Shown: positions 3,056-21,727 of the stretch, piece after piece | Layout of the letters: each line of letters opens with the position of its first letter | How positions within the stretch are numbered: the stretch's first letter is position 1 | IMG/VR virus record: IMGVR_UViG_3300020477_000152 | Coordinates: 1-21,819 of that record | DNA length: 21,819 nucleotides | Direction: 5' to 3' (one strand) | DNA from: a virus | Made by a program: the position numbers and the translations under genes | Notes under the pieces: generated by a model | Seen by the model: the letters and a program-made list of their open reading frames with translations, nothing else | Database searches by the model: none | Told to the model about the DNA's origin: nothing

Positions 3056-3691
3056 TTAACCAGCACTAATTTTAACTGTTCCGCTGTCGTTCCAGAGTTG
3101 GCCTGCGTTGTTAGGATCACTTGTTGGCAAATCAGTTGCCATAACTTTTCCTGATTCGTTAACCATTACAGTACCACTTTGATCAGGAAATTTAATATCT
3201 CTTCTTGCAGTTGCATTGGTACCAAATAATCTAGTTTTTTTATATCCTGTTGTTTGTAATATTACAGGTTTATCTACGTGAACAATTACGCCATCGTTTT
3301 GTACGATTAACATTGATTTGTGTTGTCCAGCAACTCTTGTAGTAAAAACTAAAGCAGAATCATCTGTTCCTTTTTTTGCATCTCTAATTTTAGTATCAAT
3401 ACTTGCATAACGTATAGGATCACCATCGGAGTTTCTGCCTTTCCATTGTATTTTTCCTAATATATCGCCTTTTGCTGGACTGTCGGAAATTCTTTCCATG
3501 GTCATATGAGGACCGCCCGCAGAAGAATCTGCTCTAGTGATCATTAATATATTATTTTCACTAGTGGATGTATTTCTTACAACAAGTTTTTCTAATACTT
3601 GTTTTTTGTGAAAGTCACCGTCTTTATCCGTTACTGGTTTATTATCAGTATCGTCGTCTTCTACTTTCATTAAACTATATCGTTTTGGCAT
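3056..3691 (-). CDS. Fibre-associated virion protein, 211 aa
   Basis: A polar N terminus rich in Asp and Lys (about residues 1-35) precedes a beta-rich body. The last residues, LPTSDPNNAGQLWNDSGTVK plus ISAG, match an ending common in marine phage tail and virion proteins. The start is well defined: AAGGAGG lies just before the ATG, and the ATG overlaps the stop of the giant fibre gene by one base (TAATG), so the two are co-translated. It ends with a tandem TAATAA stop. It is probably an accessory or tip component working with the 1719-aa fibre; this is inferred from context. Confidence 0.72.
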   Translation of the reverse strand: MPKRYSLMKVEDDDTDNKPVTDKDGDFHKKQVLEKLVVRNTSTSENNILMITRADSSAGGPHMTMERISDSPAKGDILGKIQWKGRNSDGDPIRYASIDTKIRDAKKGTDDSALVFTTRVAGQHKSMLIVQNDGVIVHVDKPVILQTTGYKKTRLFGTNATARRDIKFPDQSGTVMVNESGKVMATDLPTSDPNNAGQLWNDSGTVKISAG

Positions 3692-6600
3692 TATTCCTCC
3701 TTAATATATTTTTTACCTGTTAGTTTTTCAATATCTTTAATCATTTCTTCCATATTAACTCTAACAGTTTTACCTGTTTTAGTATTTCTTGAGAAGTATT
3801 CCCATTCACCTTGTTTATTGTGTGGTGAAAGTTTTGTAACGTTACCTGCTTCATCTCTAACATATACTTCAGCACTTGCTGAATCGTCTTTAGCGTATAT
3901 ATGAGCATTGTTAGCCACACCAGATGGGTCACCTGATTCAACTGCCATTGCCATAACACCAGTTAAAGCAATACCAGTATTTGTTGTTTGTAATTTTGTG
4001 TTATTGTTATAATTTAAATCAACAGAAGTTGCCGCATTAAAAGTAGCCATTGTTTTTGTACCAGCGGCATTCATAAATGTTTGTGTGCCTGATCTATAAA
4101 ATATTGTACCTGTACCTGCGTCATCAATGTAACTGTTGTTACCATCATGATAAATTTCTAAATCACCACCAGTACCAACTTTTAATTTAACACTATCATT
4201 TAACGTAACGTGTCCTGTGTGTGTTTTTGCACCAGAAATTGTTTGTGCGTTAGTTGTTAAAACTTGTAATGATGTTGAAGCACCAGCCGCCACTCTTTTT
4301 ATGTGTGTTCTATAAGCATTAACAGTTGTTGATCCACCACTGGTACTTGCCGCGGATAATGTAACTGTTGTGCCTGATAATGCCGCTGTAAATGTTAATT
4401 GTCCTGTGCCTTTAGATGATACTTCTGGACCTTGTGAAACGTAAGCATCAGATCCATCACTTACAACAAACACTTCTGATATAGATGCTGGTGTACCCGA
4501 TTCACCTGAGTTATATCCAGTAATAACATAGTGAACTCCTGTGTATGAATCAGTTGAAAATGTATCTAGTGCTGTTGCTGAAGAAGATACAGTTGTTGCA
4601 CCTACAACTCCAGTATTTGTACCAGATGAATCTGATTCAGTATCACTTAATAAAATTCTGTACATTTTAACACCAGTGTTTGCTTCATTACCTGTTGCAC
4701 GTAATCGTACATCATTACTACTAATGTCTGCTGTTAATGTTATTAATGGATTATTTCCAGTGTATACGTCGTTGTATGTTGTAATAAAAGCATCAGTTCC
4801 GTTGTGAACAACTACACATTCTATATTTTGTAATTCAGTTTTTCCTGTATTGTTTGCACTAATATAATATTTTGCACCTCTATAAGAGCCTTTTGCCCAA
4901 GTGTCTATATTTTCTACAGCACTATCAACGTCAGAATTTAAAACAGTTGCAACGTTTCCAGTTGTTGCCGCAGTTGTTGAATCACCTAATCCTATTCTAA
5001 ACCATTTAACTGAGTTTACATCTGATGTTCCTGTTGCTCTTAATCTTACAGTACTACTTTGTATGTCTGCTGTATATGTAATTTGTTGATTACTTCCAGA
5101 TCTAACACCACCTCCAGATGCTACAAATGCCGTTGTATTATTATGTACTAAACTTATTTGATCAGTTGCAACCTCATCATTAATTTCATCTCTTGTTACT
5201 GCAAGATAAAATCCTGAGTCATATGAGCTAGATGTCCAAGTATCAATGTTAGTTGCTGATGTAGAGATTGATGTTGTTTCACCTGTTGTTGTATCGTCTG
5301 ATTCTGAAGTTGCGGCTGTTGTTGCTATACTTGTCCAACCACCAGAATCATATCTTTCATATGTACTTGTATCTGTGTTATAACGTAACATACCAACTAC
5401 ACTAGTAGAAGGTCTACTTGCTGTTGATCCTGTTGGAAGTGTTAATGCACCTGGTTCTAATTTAATATTATTGTGTGTAATATATAAATCGTCTGATGTT
5501 TGTCCAGATGCTCTGTAAATATTTGTTGATTCAATTGTTTTTCTTGCAAAATAAATTTTAGTATTAGGATTACAAGATGCTCTTAATCTTGCTTTACCGC
5601 TTGATACGTCTGCTGTAAATGTTGCAAGTTGATTGTTACCTGTTATAACAAAAGTCTCAGAAATTGTAGCATCAGATCCTGCCGCATTAACAGTTAAAGT
5701 TATTTCAGAGTTTTGATATTCAGATCCTGAAGTAAGATTTAAAAAGTATTTTGCAGTTTTATATTTGAATACGTCAAAAGAGTCAATAGTTTCTACTGTT
5801 GAATCAACGTCTCCAATTACATTATAAAATACATTATCATACGTACCTAGTTTTGTTTTAGAACCTAATCCTACTCTATATAAAAGTGCAGTTGCAGTTG
5901 TATTGCTTGAAGATAATGCGTTTAATGTAACTGTTGCTCCTGATATAGTTGCTGTAAAAGTATGTGAGTAACTGCCTGTACTTGATACTTTAGCAAAGTC
6001 AGTAAAGTAACAAGTTGTACCGTTATGAACTAAATTCATTTCTGATATTTGATATTCACTTGCAGTACTGTCTTTAGTTAATATGTAATATTTTACACCT
6101 TGATAATCTGTTTTTGTAAATTGATCTAATGTTGTTGCAGTAGAACCAATTGATGTTGATGCCTTTACAATCTTTGTGTTAGTTGCATCTTTTTGTTCGT
6201 TATGATCTCCTAATGCAACTCTATAAATTCTTAAATTTGTGTGTGTTGAATGGTTAGTTGCCGCAGATAATTGTACTATTTGTCCAGATATTGCAACTGT
6301 AAAATCACAAATTCTAGTTGAATCTTCGTTAACATCATAAACCGATACGTAAGGTGTTGAGTCATCATGAATAACACTAACTTTTACGTGGCCAATCATA
6401 CTTTGGTCATAGTCTTCTATTTCAATATCGTATATTGCACCTCGGTATGCGGCTATATCAAACTCATCAATTACTGCTGATGTTGTGCCTAATTTATAAA
6501 AATTAAATTGACTTACTGCTTGGTTGTCAGTTCCTGCTCCACCACCAGCATCAGCAAAACTTAAAGATCCTGACCCATCTGTTTGTAATACTTGAGTGTT

Positions 6601-8850
6601 ACTTCCATCTGCTGTTGGAAATGTATATTCACCATTAATATTAATTGTTCCTCCGGTAGTTATAGTACCTGCAGTAGTTACGTTAGCACCACTAAATGTC
6701 ATAGCAGTTGTACTTCCTGATTTAATTATTAAATTACTACTTGTATTTGTTAAACCACCAAATTGTGTGCCATCATCTTTTAAAACTATATCTCCACCGC
6801 CTGCATCTAAATTAATATCTGCCGTAGCATCTAAAGTAATATCAGCACCTGAATCTATTTCTGCAATAACCGGTGTAGTTAAAGTTTTATTTGTTAATGT
6901 ATCAGTTGTTGCTGTTTCAACTATTGTACCACTGTGTGTTCTGCTATTAATAACCGGAGAAGTTAACGTTTTATTTGTTAATGTATCAGTTGTTGCTCTA
7001 CCAACTAATGTATCAGTAGATGTAGGTAAAGTTACTGTACCTGTGTTTTTAATTGTGCTAAACGAAGGTGTATATGTAAAGTTTGTAACACCAGTTCCTG
7101 TTGCTTCGTAGTAAGTTAATTCTTTTGCAATGGACATTCTTGCAATATAAATTTCGTTGTTTGCTGGTGATCCAGCCATTCTTAATCTTGCTTTTCCACT
7201 GGATACATCTGCTGTAAATGTTGCTAAATCCCAACTAGCTGTGCTTACAACAGATTCACTTATAGTTGCACCGTTTTTAGCAGAATTAACATTTAAAGTT
7301 ATTTCAGAATTTTGATATTGTGTGTTATCACTATTAGCAACTGATATAAAATATTTTGCAGAAACATATTTGTAAACATCAAAATCATCAATTGTTGTAA
7401 CTGCAGAATCAATATCTTTAATTTTTTTATAAGTTACGTTATCAAATGTTCCAATTTTAGTTTTAGATCCTAAATCAATTCTATACATTATTGCTGTTGC
7501 AGTTGTTCCAATGTTACTTGCACCATATAATGAAAGTGTTGAACTTGAAATTGTTGCTGAAAAGGTGATAGGTGAAACACTACTTCTAGAACTTACAACA
7601 CCATACGTGTTGTGATACACAGTTGTACCATCATGTACTAAACTCATTTCTTGTATTGAGTAATCGTCTTGTGTTGTGTCTTTAGTTAATATAATATATT
7701 TTGCAGATTGTATATCTGTTTTTGTAAAATAATCTAATTCAGTTGCAGAAGATGAAATTGCACTTGAAGTTTTTATAATTTTTGAGTTTGTATTTGCAAC
7801 ACTCTCATGATGATCACCTAACGCAACTCTTTGCATTCTTAAAGTAATGTTTGAAGAAGTATTTCCTGCGGCAGATAATTGTAAATTATTGCCGGATATA
7901 GCGGCAGTAAAGTCTGCAATTCTTGTGCTGTCTTCGTTTATGTCATATACTGCTATGTAAGGTGTTGAACCATCATGCACAATAGAAACTTTTAAGTGTC
8001 CAGTAAAACTGTTTCCTACATCTTCTATTGATATATCGTATATTGCACCTCTGTATTCTGTTAAATCAAATTGATCTACTACTGTTGAACTTGTTCCAAG
8101 TTTGTAATAATTAATTTCTTTTACTGCTGTATTAGTTCCACCACCACCGCCTGTTGAATCTGCAAATGATAGTACTCCAGAACCGTTTGTTGTTAAAACT
8201 TGTCCGTTGTTTCCATCGCTGGCATAAGCGGCCAATATACCTGATACATTAGGTAATTGTACTGTTCTATCTGCTGTTGGGTCTACAACTGTTAATGTAG
8301 TTTCGTAATTGTCAGCAGTTCCGCCTTCAAAAATAATAGTGTTTGATGTGTTTAAAAATATTCCTTCTGACTCAAAACGTACAGAATTTGAAAGAGTTCC
8401 AGCCTTCATTACTTGAACTTGTATTTTTCCATCTTCAGTTCCGTCGGATGCATCAAAGATAGTAGAATATATTCTTCCATATTCAACTTCTTGATCGTTA
8501 TCGTTTTCACCTAAAAATGATAGTTGACCTAGTTTGTCTTGGTCTGCTGGACTTCCGCTGTTTCTTTTTAATGCTAAAATTGGACTTGCTGAATTACTTG
8601 CTTCTGTAGTAGTTAATGTTAATAGAGCACTCGTACCGGTACCTGCAACACCTAACGAAGTTAGGCCTGTTATTGATGATGCGTTGATTGTTCCGTTTAC
8701 GTCTAGTAATGCTGATGGAGAAGAAGTATTGATACCTATACGAGAATTCGTAACGTCAAGATAAAGTAGGTTTGTTTCAAATGCCAGATCGGTTCCGTTC
8801 CTCGTAAGGTTAGATTTTAATACCGATCCAGAAATACGGCCTATAGCCAT
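3691..8850 (-). CDS. Giant modular tail-fibre protein, 1719 aa, with nine ~100-aa repeats
   Basis: Residues 1-52 form the N-terminal module (MAIGRISGSVLKSNLTRNGT then NLLYLDVTNSRIGI) shared with the fibres starting at 11772 and 16719. Residues ~240-580 and ~777-1110 are two copies of a ~335-aa block, each made of three ~100-aa beta-rich units with a signature like SATxLDxF...AKYYI...LVHDGTT...TADISS...LRA...YRxxLG. Three further units follow at ~1188-1520. Between the blocks are TDTLTNKTLT repeats and an RPSTSVVGMLRYN segment (~1150). The C terminus has a short helix (VNMEEMIKDIEKLTG). GAGGAG lies 10 bases before the ATG. An exact TATAAATA and an 18-bp palindrome lie upstream. It is probably a receptor-binding fibre; the ligand is unknown. 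Confidence 0.85.
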   Translation of the reverse strand: MAIGRISGSVLKSNLTRNGTDLAFETNLLYLDVTNSRIGINTSSPSALLDVNGTINASSITGLTSLGVAGTGTSALLTLTTTEASNSASPILALKRNSGSPADQDKLGQLSFLGENDNDQEVEYGRIYSTIFDASDGTEDGKIQVQVMKAGTLSNSVRFESEGIFLNTSNTIIFEGGTADNYETTLTVVDPTADRTVQLPNVSGILAAYASDGNNGQVLTTNGSGVLSFADSTGGGGGTNTAVKEINYYKLGTSSTVVDQFDLTEYRGAIYDISIEDVGNSFTGHLKVSIVHDGSTPYIAVYDINEDSTRIADFTAAISGNNLQLSAAGNTSSNITLRMQRVALGDHHESVANTNSKIIKTSSAISSSATELDYFTKTDIQSAKYIILTKDTTQDDYSIQEMSLVHDGTTVYHNTYGVVSSRSSVSPITFSATISSSTLSLYGASNIGTTATAIMYRIDLGSKTKIGTFDNVTYKKIKDIDSAVTTIDDFDVYKYVSAKYFISVANSDNTQYQNSEITLNVNSAKNGATISESVVSTASWDLATFTADVSSGKARLRMAGSPANNEIYIARMSIAKELTYYEATGTGVTNFTYTPSFSTIKNTGTVTLPTSTDTLVGRATTDTLTNKTLTSPVINSRTHSGTIVETATTDTLTNKTLTTPVIAEIDSGADITLDATADINLDAGGGDIVLKDDGTQFGGLTNTSSNLIIKSGSTTAMTFSGANVTTAGTITTGGTININGEYTFPTADGSNTQVLQTDGSGSLSFADAGGGAGTDNQAVSQFNFYKLGTTSAVIDEFDIAAYRGAIYDIEIEDYDQSMIGHVKVSVIHDDSTPYVSVYDVNEDSTRICDFTVAISGQIVQLSAATNHSTHTNLRIYRVALGDHNEQKDATNTKIVKASTSIGSTATTLDQFTKTDYQGVKYYILTKDSTASEYQISEMNLVHNGTTCYFTDFAKVSSTGSYSHTFTATISGATVTLNALSSSNTTATALLYRVGLGSKTKLGTYDNVFYNVIGDVDSTVETIDSFDVFKYKTAKYFLNLTSGSEYQNSEITLTVNAAGSDATISETFVITGNNQLATFTADVSSGKARLRASCNPNTKIYFARKTIESTNIYRASGQTSDDLYITHNNIKLEPGALTLPTGSTASRPSTSVVGMLRYNTDTSTYERYDSGGWTSIATTAATSESDDTTTGETTSISTSATNIDTWTSSSYDSGFYLAVTRDEINDEVATDQISLVHNNTTAFVASGGGVRSGSNQQITYTADIQSSTVRLRATGTSDVNSVKWFRIGLGDSTTAATTGNVATVLNSDVDSAVENIDTWAKGSYRGAKYYISANNTGKTELQNIECVVVHNGTDAFITTYNDVYTGNNPLITLTADISSNDVRLRATGNEANTGVKMYRILLSDTESDSSGTNTGVVGATTVSSSATALDTFSTDSYTGVHYVITGYNSGESGTPASISEVFVVSDGSDAYVSQGPEVSSKGTGQLTFTAALSGTTVTLSAASTSGGSTTVNAYRTHIKRVAAGASTSLQVLTTNAQTISGAKTHTGHVTLNDSVKLKVGTGGDLEIYHDGNNSYIDDAGTGTIFYRSGTQTFMNAAGTKTMATFNAATSVDLNYNNNTKLQTTNTGIALTGVMAMAVESGDPSGVANNAHIYAKDDSASAEVYVRDEAGNVTKLSPHNKQGEWEYFSRNTKTGKTVRVNMEEMIKDIEKLTGKKYIKEE
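4300..5290 (-). repeat. Three additional ~100-aa fibre repeats
   Basis: Approximate limits. Residues ~1188-1520 contain three more units, beginning near SISTSATNIDTW, SDVDSAVENIDTW and TVSSSATALDTF. Each carries the V(H/S)(N/D)GxxAxV and TADI/TAAL core seen in the large blocks. A further related unit ends the 534-aa protein (SSATTIMSF...LVTHNGSTAF). Confidence 0.7.
5521..6522 (-). repeat. Protein-level duplication, copy 2 of the three-domain block
   Basis: Approximate limits. It encodes residues ~777-1110, running from AVSQFNFYKLGTTSAVIDEF to FARKTIE. The internal order of three related ~100-aa units is the same as in copy 1, which argues for duplication of a whole block rather than of single units. 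Confidence 0.75.
6884..6913. repeat. 30-bp exact direct repeat, copy 1
   Basis: Identical to 6968-6997, 84 bases apart start to start. On the minus strand it encodes the (A)TTDTLTNKTL segment of the giant fibre. Confidence 0.85.
6968..6997. repeat. 30-bp exact direct repeat, copy 2
   Basis: Identical to 6884-6913. Similarity extends weakly beyond it (ATAACCGG near both copies), giving a degenerate tandem unit of 84 bases, 28 codons, in frame. Confidence 0.85.
7111..8133 (-). repeat. Protein-level duplication, copy 1 of a three-domain block in the giant fibre
   Basis: Approximate limits. It encodes residues ~240-580, running from EINYYKLGTSSTVVDQFDLT to IARMSIAKEL. It aligns by eye over its whole length with copy 2 at 5521-6522, for example RGAIYDISIED against RGAIYDIEIED and TADVSSGKARLR in both. 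Confidence 0.75.
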
Positions 8851-8879
8851 AACTCTAGGTCTCCTCTATTAATATGTTA

Positions 8880-8897
8880 GTGTACAATATTGTACAC
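8880..8897. promoter_or_regulatory. Perfect 18-bp palindrome in the leader of the giant fibre gene
   Basis: GTGTACAATATTGTACAC is its own reverse complement. It sits 30 bases upstream of the ATG at 8850 and about 40 bases after the TATAAATA promoter. It could be a dyad bound by a protein, or in RNA a 7-bp stem with an AUAU loop. Confidence 0.6.
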
Positions 8898-8935
8898 ACA
8901 GCCTCTTTATCTTTGCCGGCTGACAGCAGTATACG

Positions 8936-19299: not shown

Positions 19300-19307
19300 T
19301 AAAGAAA

Positions 19308-19328
19308 GGGGGAGCGTTGAACTCCCCC
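19308..19328 (-). terminator. Rho-independent terminator of the 140-aa gene
   Basis: GGGGGAG (19308-19314) pairs with CTCCCCC (19322-19328) around a 7-nt loop. On the minus strand TTTCTTT follows. Confidence 0.82.
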
Positions 19329-19360
19329 TAAATCCTTATAAGCACGTGTTTGATCTATTA

Positions 19361-19783
19361 TTATCTAACGTCTATAGATCCAGCGCCTGAACCAGCTTGT
19401 CCTTCGTCAGAACCTTCTGCTCCAAGTGAGTATGTACAAGTACCTGCCGCACCCGCCGCCGTTACATAGTGAATTGTATTATTATAGAATTTTTCTACGT
19501 AAGCAACAGTAGAGTCGTTCAATATAACTTGAACACAAAACTGGTTGGATGTATTAGCCAATGATGCTGGTGCTACTGCTTTTAATTCATAAACTGCTTC
19601 AGATGAATCATCTAAGTGAATCTTGAATATTCTTGATCCTCTTTGAGATACAATGTATGCTGTTGTTGAACTAACTAGAGATCCACCACTTGGTCGATAT
19701 CCAGTTACTGCAATTTTACCAGAAAGTGCTCCGCCGAATCCGACGTCGCCACCCATTTTAGATCTTTTAATTGGTCTTCCCAT
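19361..19783 (-). CDS. Small virion structural protein, 140 aa
   Basis: The N terminus is basic and glycine-rich (MGRPIKRSKMGGDVGFGGAL), the core is beta-rich (STTAYIVSQRGSRIFKIHLD, then FCVQVILNDSTVAYVEKFYN), and the last ~20 residues are a Gly/Ser/Ala tail. Small proteins of this build are common among marine T4-like structural genes, but no precise role is known to me. It is monocistronic: a terminator precedes the promoter and another follows the stop. AAGGAGA lies 7 bases before the ATG. The leader upstream can fold as a 70-nt cloverleaf, suggesting a highly expressed or specially controlled message. Confidence 0.72.
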   Translation of the reverse strand: MGRPIKRSKMGGDVGFGGALSGKIAVTGYRPSGGSLVSSTTAYIVSQRGSRIFKIHLDDSSEAVYELKAVAPASLANTSNQFCVQVILNDSTVAYVEKFYNNTIHYVTAAGAAGTCTYSLGAEGSDEGQAGSGAGSIDVR

Positions 19784-19800
19784 TTTGTTTTCTCCTTGTT

Positions 19801-19870
19801 CAGAGCCTAATGCGAGTTCTACTCGCTACGCGGTTTATTCCGCATAAGTCTCCACTTGAGTGGAGCTCTG
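19801..19870 (-). promoter_or_regulatory. 70-nt cloverleaf-like structured leader
   Basis: CAGAGC (19801-19806) can pair with GCTCTG (19865-19870), closing three hairpins: GCGAG/CTCGC (19812-19826, 5-nt loop), GCGG/CCGC (19830-19843, 6-nt loop) and CTCCAC/GTGGAG (19850-19865, TTGA loop on the plus strand). One base (19865) is shared between the closing stem and the third hairpin. It lies between the AATAAATA promoter and the Shine-Dalgarno sequence of the 140-aa gene. Loop sizes do not fit a tRNA. Confidence 0.6.
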
Positions 19871-19883
19871 TTTGAACTATTAT

Positions 19884-19932: not shown

Positions 19933-19966
19933 GAGTGGTGTAAAATTAAAAGTAGTTACACCACTC
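19933..19966 (-). terminator. Rho-independent terminator of the 77-aa gene
   Basis: GAGTGGTGTAA (19933-19943) pairs perfectly with TTACACCACTC (19956-19966) over 11 bp. On the minus strand a run of six T follows. Confidence 0.88.
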
Positions 19967-20354: not shown

Positions 20355-20930
20355 CTACGTACAGAATTCTTCAAATAATTTATAATCGTAGTCGTTATAT
20401 TCTCGATGCCAACTTAAAAATTCATCGCTTAATTTATCTTTTGAAATATATTTTATGTAATCTATATTACTTCTGTTAGTACTATCCCTAGGTTCTTTGT
20501 CAATGTTTAACATATTAGAAATTTCATCCCAACTCTCTTCAATATTTTCTAAAGAAAAAACTTTTTTAAAGTTAATTCTTAAACATTGTTGTACATTTAG
20601 ATATTTTGAATGCATATCAACAGTAGGATCTAAACAAAGATAATTTTTGTGTAACCATAAGGTTATAAAATTACCGGATAGTTGTTCACAATGTTCTTCA
20701 AAAGAGTCAGCTACTGCTTCTCCTTTGTTCATATCATAGTTAAATTGAGAAATATCTCTGTCTAAAGGAGTACGCAACCAAGTAAAATGTATTCCTGGAG
20801 TTCTGTGAGTAGTGTTATGGCCAATAGCATAATCTAATTTACTAATTTGTTTTTTATCTGCACGATCTTCAAGTCTTAATCTTATTGTGCTACCACCTGT
20901 TTTTGGTATATGATGAAATGTATGATGCAT
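20355..20930 (-). CDS. PAPS-dependent sulfotransferase (Sulfotransfer_2-like), 191 aa
   Basis: Both cofactor motifs of the carbohydrate sulfotransferase family are present: the 5'-phosphosulfate loop IPKTGGST at residues 8-15 and the 3'-phosphate site RTPLDRDIS at residues 53-61 (Arg53, Arg58, Ser61). GHNT near residue 37 is placed like the strand-loop between them in this family. Such enzymes move sulfate from PAPS to a hydroxyl of a sugar or other acceptor. At 191 aa it is short for the family, so it may be a minimal form. It overlaps kdsA by one base (TAATG) with no ribosome site of its own, so the two are coupled. That pairing suggests a glycan or lipopolysaccharide acceptor, by inference. 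Confidence 0.82.
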   Translation of the reverse strand: MHHTFHHIPKTGGSTIRLRLEDRADKKQISKLDYAIGHNTTHRTPGIHFTWLRTPLDRDISQFNYDMNKGEAVADSFEEHCEQLSGNFITLWLHKNYLCLDPTVDMHSKYLNVQQCLRINFKKVFSLENIEESWDEISNMLNIDKEPRDSTNRSNIDYIKYISKDKLSDEFLSWHREYNDYDYKLFEEFCT

Positions 20931-21727
20931 TATTTTACAATTCGGTCTATTTTCTTTAGTGTTCCTAGTAAATTTTCTAAATCTTCTAGATGTAAATTGT
21001 TTGGTCCATCTGAATATGCGTTATCAGGGTCGTTATGAACTTCCATAAACACACCAGCAACACCTACGGCAACTGCCGCTTTAGCAATTACAGGTATGTG
21101 TTCTCTATTGCCACCTGAACTTGTACCTTGACCACCTGGTTGTTGACAACTGTGTGTAGCATCTATAACAACAGGATAACCTGTCTTCTTCATTTCGTGT
21201 AACCCTCGCATATCATTTACAAGTGTGTTGTAACCAAAACTTGTACCCCGTTCACATAACATAATCATTTCGTTGCCTGTTGATGCAATTTTATATGCAA
21301 CGTTGGCCATATCCCATGGTGCAAGGAATTGTCCTTTTTTAACATTAATCCATATATTTTGTTTGCCTGCTTCTAGTAATAAATCAGTTTGTCTACATAA
21401 AAACGCAGGTATTTGTATTGCATCTACGTGTGGTGCTACAATTGAACATTGTTCCGCTGTATGTACATCTGTAATAATGTTAATGTCCATTTTTGATTTT
21501 AGATAATCAAAAATTTTTAAACCTTCTTCAAGTCCTGCTCCTCTTTTACCATGTAGTGAAGTTCTATTTGCTTTATCAAATGAAGATTTGTATATCAGTT
21601 CTATACCCATATGGTCAGTTATCTTTTTAATTTCAGTTGCCATATAGAGTGCGTGTTCTTTAGACTCAATTTGGCAAGGTCCTGCTATAAGAAAAAACGG
21701 TTTGTCGTTGCCTATGTCTATGTCCAT
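20930..21727 (-). CDS. kdsA: 3-deoxy-D-manno-octulosonate 8-phosphate synthase
   Basis: KdsA condenses phosphoenolpyruvate with arabinose 5-phosphate to make KDO-8-P, the committed step towards the inner-core sugar of Gram-negative lipopolysaccharide. Family motifs run in order: IAGPCQIES (14-22), YKSSFDKANRTS (46-57), GAGLEEGL (63-70), DVHTAEQ (87-93), IQIPAFLCRQTDLL (104-117), KKGQFLAPWDM (130-140), CERGTSFGYNTLV (158-170), DATHSCQQPGG (189-199) and SDGPN (239-243). Cys18, His192, Glu229 and Asp240 match the metal ligands of the metal-dependent class. It is nearly full length (265 aa against about 280), so likely active. A TTAAATA element lies 5 bases before the ATG, after a terminator, with no Shine-Dalgarno sequence. 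Confidence 0.95.
   Translation of the reverse strand: MDIDIGNDKPFFLIAGPCQIESKEHALYMATEIKKITDHMGIELIYKSSFDKANRTSLHGKRGAGLEEGLKIFDYLKSKMDINIITDVHTAEQCSIVAPHVDAIQIPAFLCRQTDLLLEAGKQNIWINVKKGQFLAPWDMANVAYKIASTGNEMIMLCERGTSFGYNTLVNDMRGLHEMKKTGYPVVIDATHSCQQPGGQGTSSGGNREHIPVIAKAAVAVGVAGVFMEVHNDPDNAYSDGPNNLHLEDLENLLGTLKKIDRIVK

Follow-up and report, generated by a model that had tools for sequence, protein, structure and literature searches.

Freshwater-2 RNA as a putative late-mRNA leader in uncultured T4-like phages

Results

We analyzed a 21,819-nucleotide stretch of viral DNA (the "window"; positions 1 to 21,819 of IMG/VR record IMGVR_UViG_3300020477_000152), in which a group of features, all on the minus strand, surrounds a short open reading frame (ORF). 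The ORF (positions 19361 to 19783, with its AUG at 19783) encodes a 140-amino-acid protein beginning MGRPIKRSKM, which is predicted to be all-beta and probably has a structural role. It is preceded by a Shine-Dalgarno (SD) sequence, AAGGAGA (19797 to 19791), and followed by an intrinsic terminator that was detected by a terminator scan (AGGGGGAG-loop-CTCCCCCT plus a T-run; 19307 to 19329). Upstream is a putative T4-type late promoter, AATAAATA (19891 to 19884). Transcription from T4 late promoters starts 5 nt after the promoter octamer, a geometry that places the predicted start site (+1) at 19878. Cyanophage S-PM2 has the consensus for this promoter, NATAAATA, as its late promoter (PMC2984593). 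TAAATA lies 5' of 211 of 212 copies of the leader element described below. Farther upstream, an 11-bp hairpin followed by the T-run TTTTTTAT (19933 to 19966) probably acts as the terminator of the preceding gene; its 12-nt loop exceeds the 8-nt limit of the terminator scan, which therefore did not list it. An 11-bp hairpin with a T-run is also present just upstream of the element in a second contig, L007. We concluded that the late promoter, structured leader, strong SD, and gene make up one fixed unit, which in the window is bounded by predicted terminators on both sides.

The initial annotation had described three hairpins enclosed by CAGAGC/GCTCTG at 19801 to 19870 and had regarded the fold as the leader of a late transcript. 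Both descriptions hold when the leader is read on the minus strand: the hairpins and the enclosing stem are present in the sequence, and the fold begins at the expected late start and stops just 5' of the SD. The closing stem (P0) pairs CAGAGC (19865 to 19870) with GCUCUG (19801 to 19806), and its helix may be extended by GUU (19875 to 19877) pairing with AAC (19798 to 19800) at a predicted probability of 0.44. Within it lie P1 (CTCCAC-TCAA-GTGGAG; 19850 to 19865), P2 (UAUGCGG-AAUAAA-CCGCGUA; 19827 to 19846), and P3 (GCGA-GUAGAAC-UCGC; 19812 to 19826), the last with a conserved 7-nt loop, N-U-A-G-A-A-C (19816 to 19822). From the predicted +1 to the AUG, the minus-strand leader folds at -31.9 kcal/mol, compared to -17.0 kcal/mol (sd, 2.8) for dinucleotide shuffles (z, -5.3). 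None of 200 shuffles was as stable, which settles a comparison that the initial annotation had proposed. The plus strand of 19801 to 19870 folds at -27.9 kcal/mol (z, -4.0). Pair probabilities, computed with 31 nt of coding sequence added, were 0.8 to 1.0 for P2 and P3 and 0.95 for the inner part of P1. They were just 0.4 to 0.7 for the closing stem (0.43 to 0.72 for CAGAGC), which is therefore the weakest part of the fold.

A search of Rfam matched positions 19865 to 19781 to the freshwater-2 RNA family (RF02980) with 73.6 bits, against a gathering score of 49.9, and the match covers model positions 1 to 84 completely. From this match, we assign the element to freshwater-2. The element and the family have in common hairpins P1 to P3, the loop UAGAAC, and AAGGAGAAAACAAAUG; the six-base closing stem lies outside the Rfam structure. 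Rfam classes the family as cis-regulatory, and the SD and AUG are inside the model. The original description of freshwater-2 is reportedly that of Weinberg et al. (2017), and a literature search by name found no mention of freshwater-2.

Pattern scans of IMG/VR yielded many copies of the element. Since some of the scan patterns contained the loop or the SD, we drew three less biased samples. A sample selected by hairpin 2 only gave 121 matches, of which 118 had the TAAATA late promoter; the other 3 were chance matches. A protein starting M[G/A]R followed in 117 cases, and one more was cut off by the contig end. The loop was exactly UAGAAC in 97 and mostly UAAAAC or GAGAAC in the remainder. The other two samples were selected by protein only. 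With the window's gene as the query, the element was present at all 58 loci whose 5' side was intact (two further loci, on truncated contigs, are left aside), and with a distant family gene as the query, it was present at 34 of 34. Thus, the element accompanies all 92 of the relatives that were found by protein alone and are intact on the 5' side, which is a new observation; in the window, likewise, the ORF is directly downstream, the position of a cis-regulatory RNA. When 68 records were searched whole around earlier matches, a single copy was present in 66, two copies were present in one, and the remaining record lacked the element. Terminators were found within about 110 nt downstream of 26 of 117 units and upstream of 22 of 127, compared to 1% of control windows. 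Three contigs (L026, L036, and L047) have divergent copies 5' of genes starting MANKLSKRYFG or MSNKLKISK, in which CCUAGAACGUC and the SD are kept and hairpin 2 is different; these copies are possibly a subfamily.

Several genes identify the type of phage. Genes for T4-like Gp23 and Portal_T4 adjoin the element in one contig (L485), another (L042) encodes T4 gp15, and the window encodes a tail-sheath family member and has a short stretch with 78% DNA identity to Pelagibacter phage HTVC008M. The late promoter NATAAATA and T4-type hallmark genes thus occur in the same genomes. We concluded from gene content that the element-bearing genomes are T4-like (gp23, gp20, and gp15). The window also has, at 20930 to 21727 and 20355 to 20930 on the minus strand, genes for an aldolase related to the DAHP-aldolase family and for a protein weakly matching a sulfotransferase family. 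Lying beside the structural module, they are possible auxiliary metabolic or surface-sugar genes.

A first pattern scan of genome contigs gave no match. A second pattern matched two contigs of one Neomarinimicrobiota metagenome-assembled genome (MAG), L484 and L485 (PBPT01000082.1 and PBPT01000016.1), which carry the element and the MGRP gene and are almost identical in sequence in this region. In L485, genes for a T4-like portal, protease, and capsid lie beside the element. These are probably phage contigs binned into the MAG, and since the flanks in L485 are phage genes, no host can be inferred from it. DNA comparison with cultured phages gave no match to the element, and scoring them with RF02980 gave only subthreshold matches, in HTVC008M and Atu_ph07. 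The leader of HTVC008M gp136 (L358; NC_020484.1, 112393 to 112476) resembles the element in having a late promoter, a row of hairpins, AAGGAGA, and an AUG (z, -4.3). However, it scores just 23 bits to RF02980, precedes another gene, and lacks the loop motif. By these measures, it is an analogue rather than a member of RF02980.

We used an alignment of 51 sequences that was not fitted to the structure to look for covariation in P2 and P3, a check that the initial annotation had suggested for homologous leaders. Overall, 97.4% of cells pair, versus 22 to 56% when the partners were slid by 1 to 3 columns, and 74 cells had changed on both sides, versus 7 to 19 in the slid controls. Neither the paired fraction nor the count of two-sided changes was matched by any of 500 shuffles. 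P2 is 100% paired in the 51 sequences; its two inner pairs have been exchanged on both sides, and its four outer pairs, including a U.G pair, are invariant. In P3, all four pairs show exchange on both sides among relatives. P1 differs in almost every relative; most of 50 relatives have another helix in its position, and its mean pairing score exceeds that of shuffled upstream sequence (11.3 versus 7.2; 50 relatives). Hence, each of the three hairpins of the RF02980 structure is backed by covariation or by variable helices, a pattern which indicates that they are under selection as RNA. In addition, among 128 non-redundant elements, 99 have bases at the predicted start (usually GUC) that could form pairs with the three bases immediately 5' of hairpin 2, compared to 21.5 expected from shuffles. 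We rejected two further candidates: no pseudoknot between the loop UAGAAC and a nearby GUUCUA is conserved (by eye), and the first codons are not conserved as RNA, since synonymous codons vary.

The closing stem has a narrower distribution than the hairpins that it encloses. It is present in the window's sub-clade, but it shows no base-pair exchange, and it is not a property of the family: most members have a P3-to-SD spacer of <11 bases and no closing helix. The relatives with a long spacer, which we refer to as the window's clade, go beyond the RF02980 model in this spacer, in the closing helix P0, and in a possible anti-SD pairing. In sub-class A, which includes the window, the helix is CAGAGC/GCUCUG, extended by GUU/AAC in several members; in L353, this extension is shortened on both sides together (GUC/GAC). 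The sub-class A stem carries no covariation because its six pairs do not vary. In sub-class B, a GUUCAA/UUGGAC helix replaces it. A leader's own closing strands are predicted to pair more stably than swapped strands (mean, -5.7 versus -4.9 kcal/mol; reached by 6 of 2,000 permutations, an outcome that shared ancestry may exaggerate). In the window's clade, the 3' strand shows strong conservation while the hairpins change. In the window, CUCU (19802 to 19805) in this strand is shared by the closing stem (0.43 to 0.72) and a pairing with GGAG that would block the SD (0.2). In sub-class B, CUCCU lies opposite AGGAG, with a predicted pairing probability of about 0.9. The predicted probability that the SD is unpaired is 0.70 in the majority class, 0.75 in the window's class, and 0.18 in sub-class B. 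The median number of unpaired 5' bases before the first helix is 0 in the majority class and 1 in sub-class B; in the window's class, most minimum-energy folds have 7 or 8.

The downstream proteins have in common the N-terminal sequence MGRP[L/I/V] and a conserved region around ...KQRGSKxFxV..., and the window's protein is 17 to 32% identical to most of them. Its AlphaFold2 model is all-beta (pLDDT, 73.5) and has no PDB match; among viral structures, it best matches proteins encoded by Agrobacterium phage Atu_ph07 and by uncultured phages. Searches of Pfam, PHROGs, and PDB assigned no function. Among cultured phages, the gene has homologues, distant ones, only in Atu_ph07 and Sinorhizobium phage Phosso, where it lies behind a late promoter with a short leader lacking the element. 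Hence, the gene and its MGRP start can exist without the RNA. We rejected the MGRP peptide as an RNA-binding part, since it is kept in phages without the RNA. The initial annotation had called the gene a virion gene; a virion-associated product is likely, judging from the late promoter, the adjacent capsid gene in L485, and the all-beta model.

Discussion

We tentatively favor, at slightly under even odds, the reading that the element is a 5'-terminal stabilizer and translation leader of a late mRNA. Among the functions named in the initial annotation, a 5' stability element fits the sequence data best; a translation regulator is also possible, and a processed small RNA finds no support in them. 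The element would make up the entire 5' untranslated region of a short late mRNA that encodes an MGRP-type beta protein in a T4-like phage. Late RNA polymerase would start at its first bases, and the 5' end would at once be tied into a helix: GUC/GAC in most of the family, and GUUCAA/UUGGAC or GUU..CAGAGC/GCUCUG..AAC in the window's clade. With the 5' end in a helix, 5'-end-dependent decay should be hindered, as with the ompA leader, and an open SD would serve heavy late translation. A fixed arrangement in which the promoter is followed by a +1-terminal helix, hairpins, an open SD, a short gene, and a terminator is what would be expected of a leader that protects an mRNA and feeds ribosomes to it. 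Leaders of the ompA type (work on the ompA leader is cited in PMC7509114) would be analogous in having a stem-loop at or adjacent to the 5' end, a strong SD, and an abundant protein product. Unlike them, the element has a conserved loop sequence and three hairpins, and the two are not homologous. Four points count against the stabilizer and leader reading. The constancy of the loop exceeds what a plain stabilizer needs. The SD of sub-class B is predicted to be mostly paired, which argues against a pure translation enhancer. In the window, the 5'-terminal GUU and the closing stem are predicted to pair only part of the time. Finally, the homologous genes of Atu_ph07 and Phosso work without the element.

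The conserved UAGAAC loop and the invariant U.G pair of P2, constant while the stems vary, probably contact a protein or take part in a tertiary interaction. Since they suggest an additional binding partner, we considered, as the main rival, an autogenous or other operator, in which a protein of the phage (perhaps the encoded structural protein itself) or of the host would bind the loop or P2 and repress or activate translation. We regard this as possible though doubtful. T4 has such operators for gp32 and gp43 (PMC3014915), which, like the element, are structured RNAs just 5' of the SD in T4-type phages. Those operators control replication genes, whereas the element precedes a late, probably structural gene with no known repressor. 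In the window's clade, binding would shift the balance between the closing stem and the pairing that hides the SD, and both the shared CUCU of the window and the strong CUCCU-AGGAG pairing of sub-class B are consistent with this. However, the RNA core hardly changes although the proteins have diverged widely from the window's, the conserved MGRP N terminus persists in phages without the element, and the SD of the majority is mostly open, with no anti-SD. We consider it improbable that freshwater-2 as a whole serves T4-like phages as a class of operators for late structural genes, with a loop-bound phage protein metering a virion protein and with the closing helix and SD-blocking pairing of the window's clade as an on/off switch.

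A riboswitch- or thermosensor-like switch restricted to the window's clade, in which the SD would be free when the closing stem forms and paired with CUCU when it opens, is less probable again. It would account for the use of some of the same bases by both pairings in the window (0.7 versus 0.2) and for the conserved 3' strand. However, the SD-blocking pairing is weak (4 bp, including one G.U), the closing helix and SD hairpin of sub-class B barely overlap, and no ligand pocket was identified. We think it very unlikely that this is a DNA-level element (part of the late promoter, or a packaging or recombination site) that folds by chance. Its fixed place next to the promoter and single copy in most records searched would suit such an element, but compensatory changes preserve pairing, with G.U kept, rather than DNA sequence, and the conserved SD and constant place ahead of a single gene family argue for mRNA. 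The least likely reading is a tRNA-like RNA or a processed small RNA, which the cloverleaf-like drawing of three hairpins within a closing stem had suggested to the initial annotation: ARAGORN found no tRNA or tmRNA, the Rfam search gave no tRNA match, there is no CCA or other acceptor feature, most relatives lack the closing stem, and the cis-regulatory Rfam model continues through the conserved SD and AUG with no sign of separate processing.

Our data place freshwater-2 in T4-like phages, behind one late promoter and ahead of one gene family, with a fold that begins at the predicted first transcribed base. This genomic setting makes the function of the RNA directly testable. To the catalogued family, our analysis adds the type of phage, an invariant gene partner, the 5'-terminal pairing, and the clade-specific closing helix and SD pairing.

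When late leaders were compared, a second conserved leader was found, 5' of a gene starting MA[I/V]GRI[S/T]G. Examples are L104 (6193 to 6296), L103 (9884 to 9987), and L039 (417 to 533, minus strand), and about 120 further IMG/VR contigs have it. The window's counterpart of the gene is at 3691 to 8850 (minus strand), with a divergent leader at 8851 to 8935. The second leader has a covarying 5' hairpin and the constant blocks ACUGUGGUAAACCCGCAAUG...GGUGGUUANCCGUGAAACACGG and CCGUGAAACACGG, possibly with a pseudoknot. Its single-sequence folding energies are not unusual, and it has no Rfam match and no similar record in the phage collection. Among 120 exact matches to ACUGUGGUAAACCCGCAAUG, 116 are behind a late promoter and 111 are before a gene with an M..GR start. 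We consider it a candidate new RNA family. Its occurrence in the same genomes as freshwater-2 suggests that late genes of uncultured T4-like phages are furnished with structured leaders.
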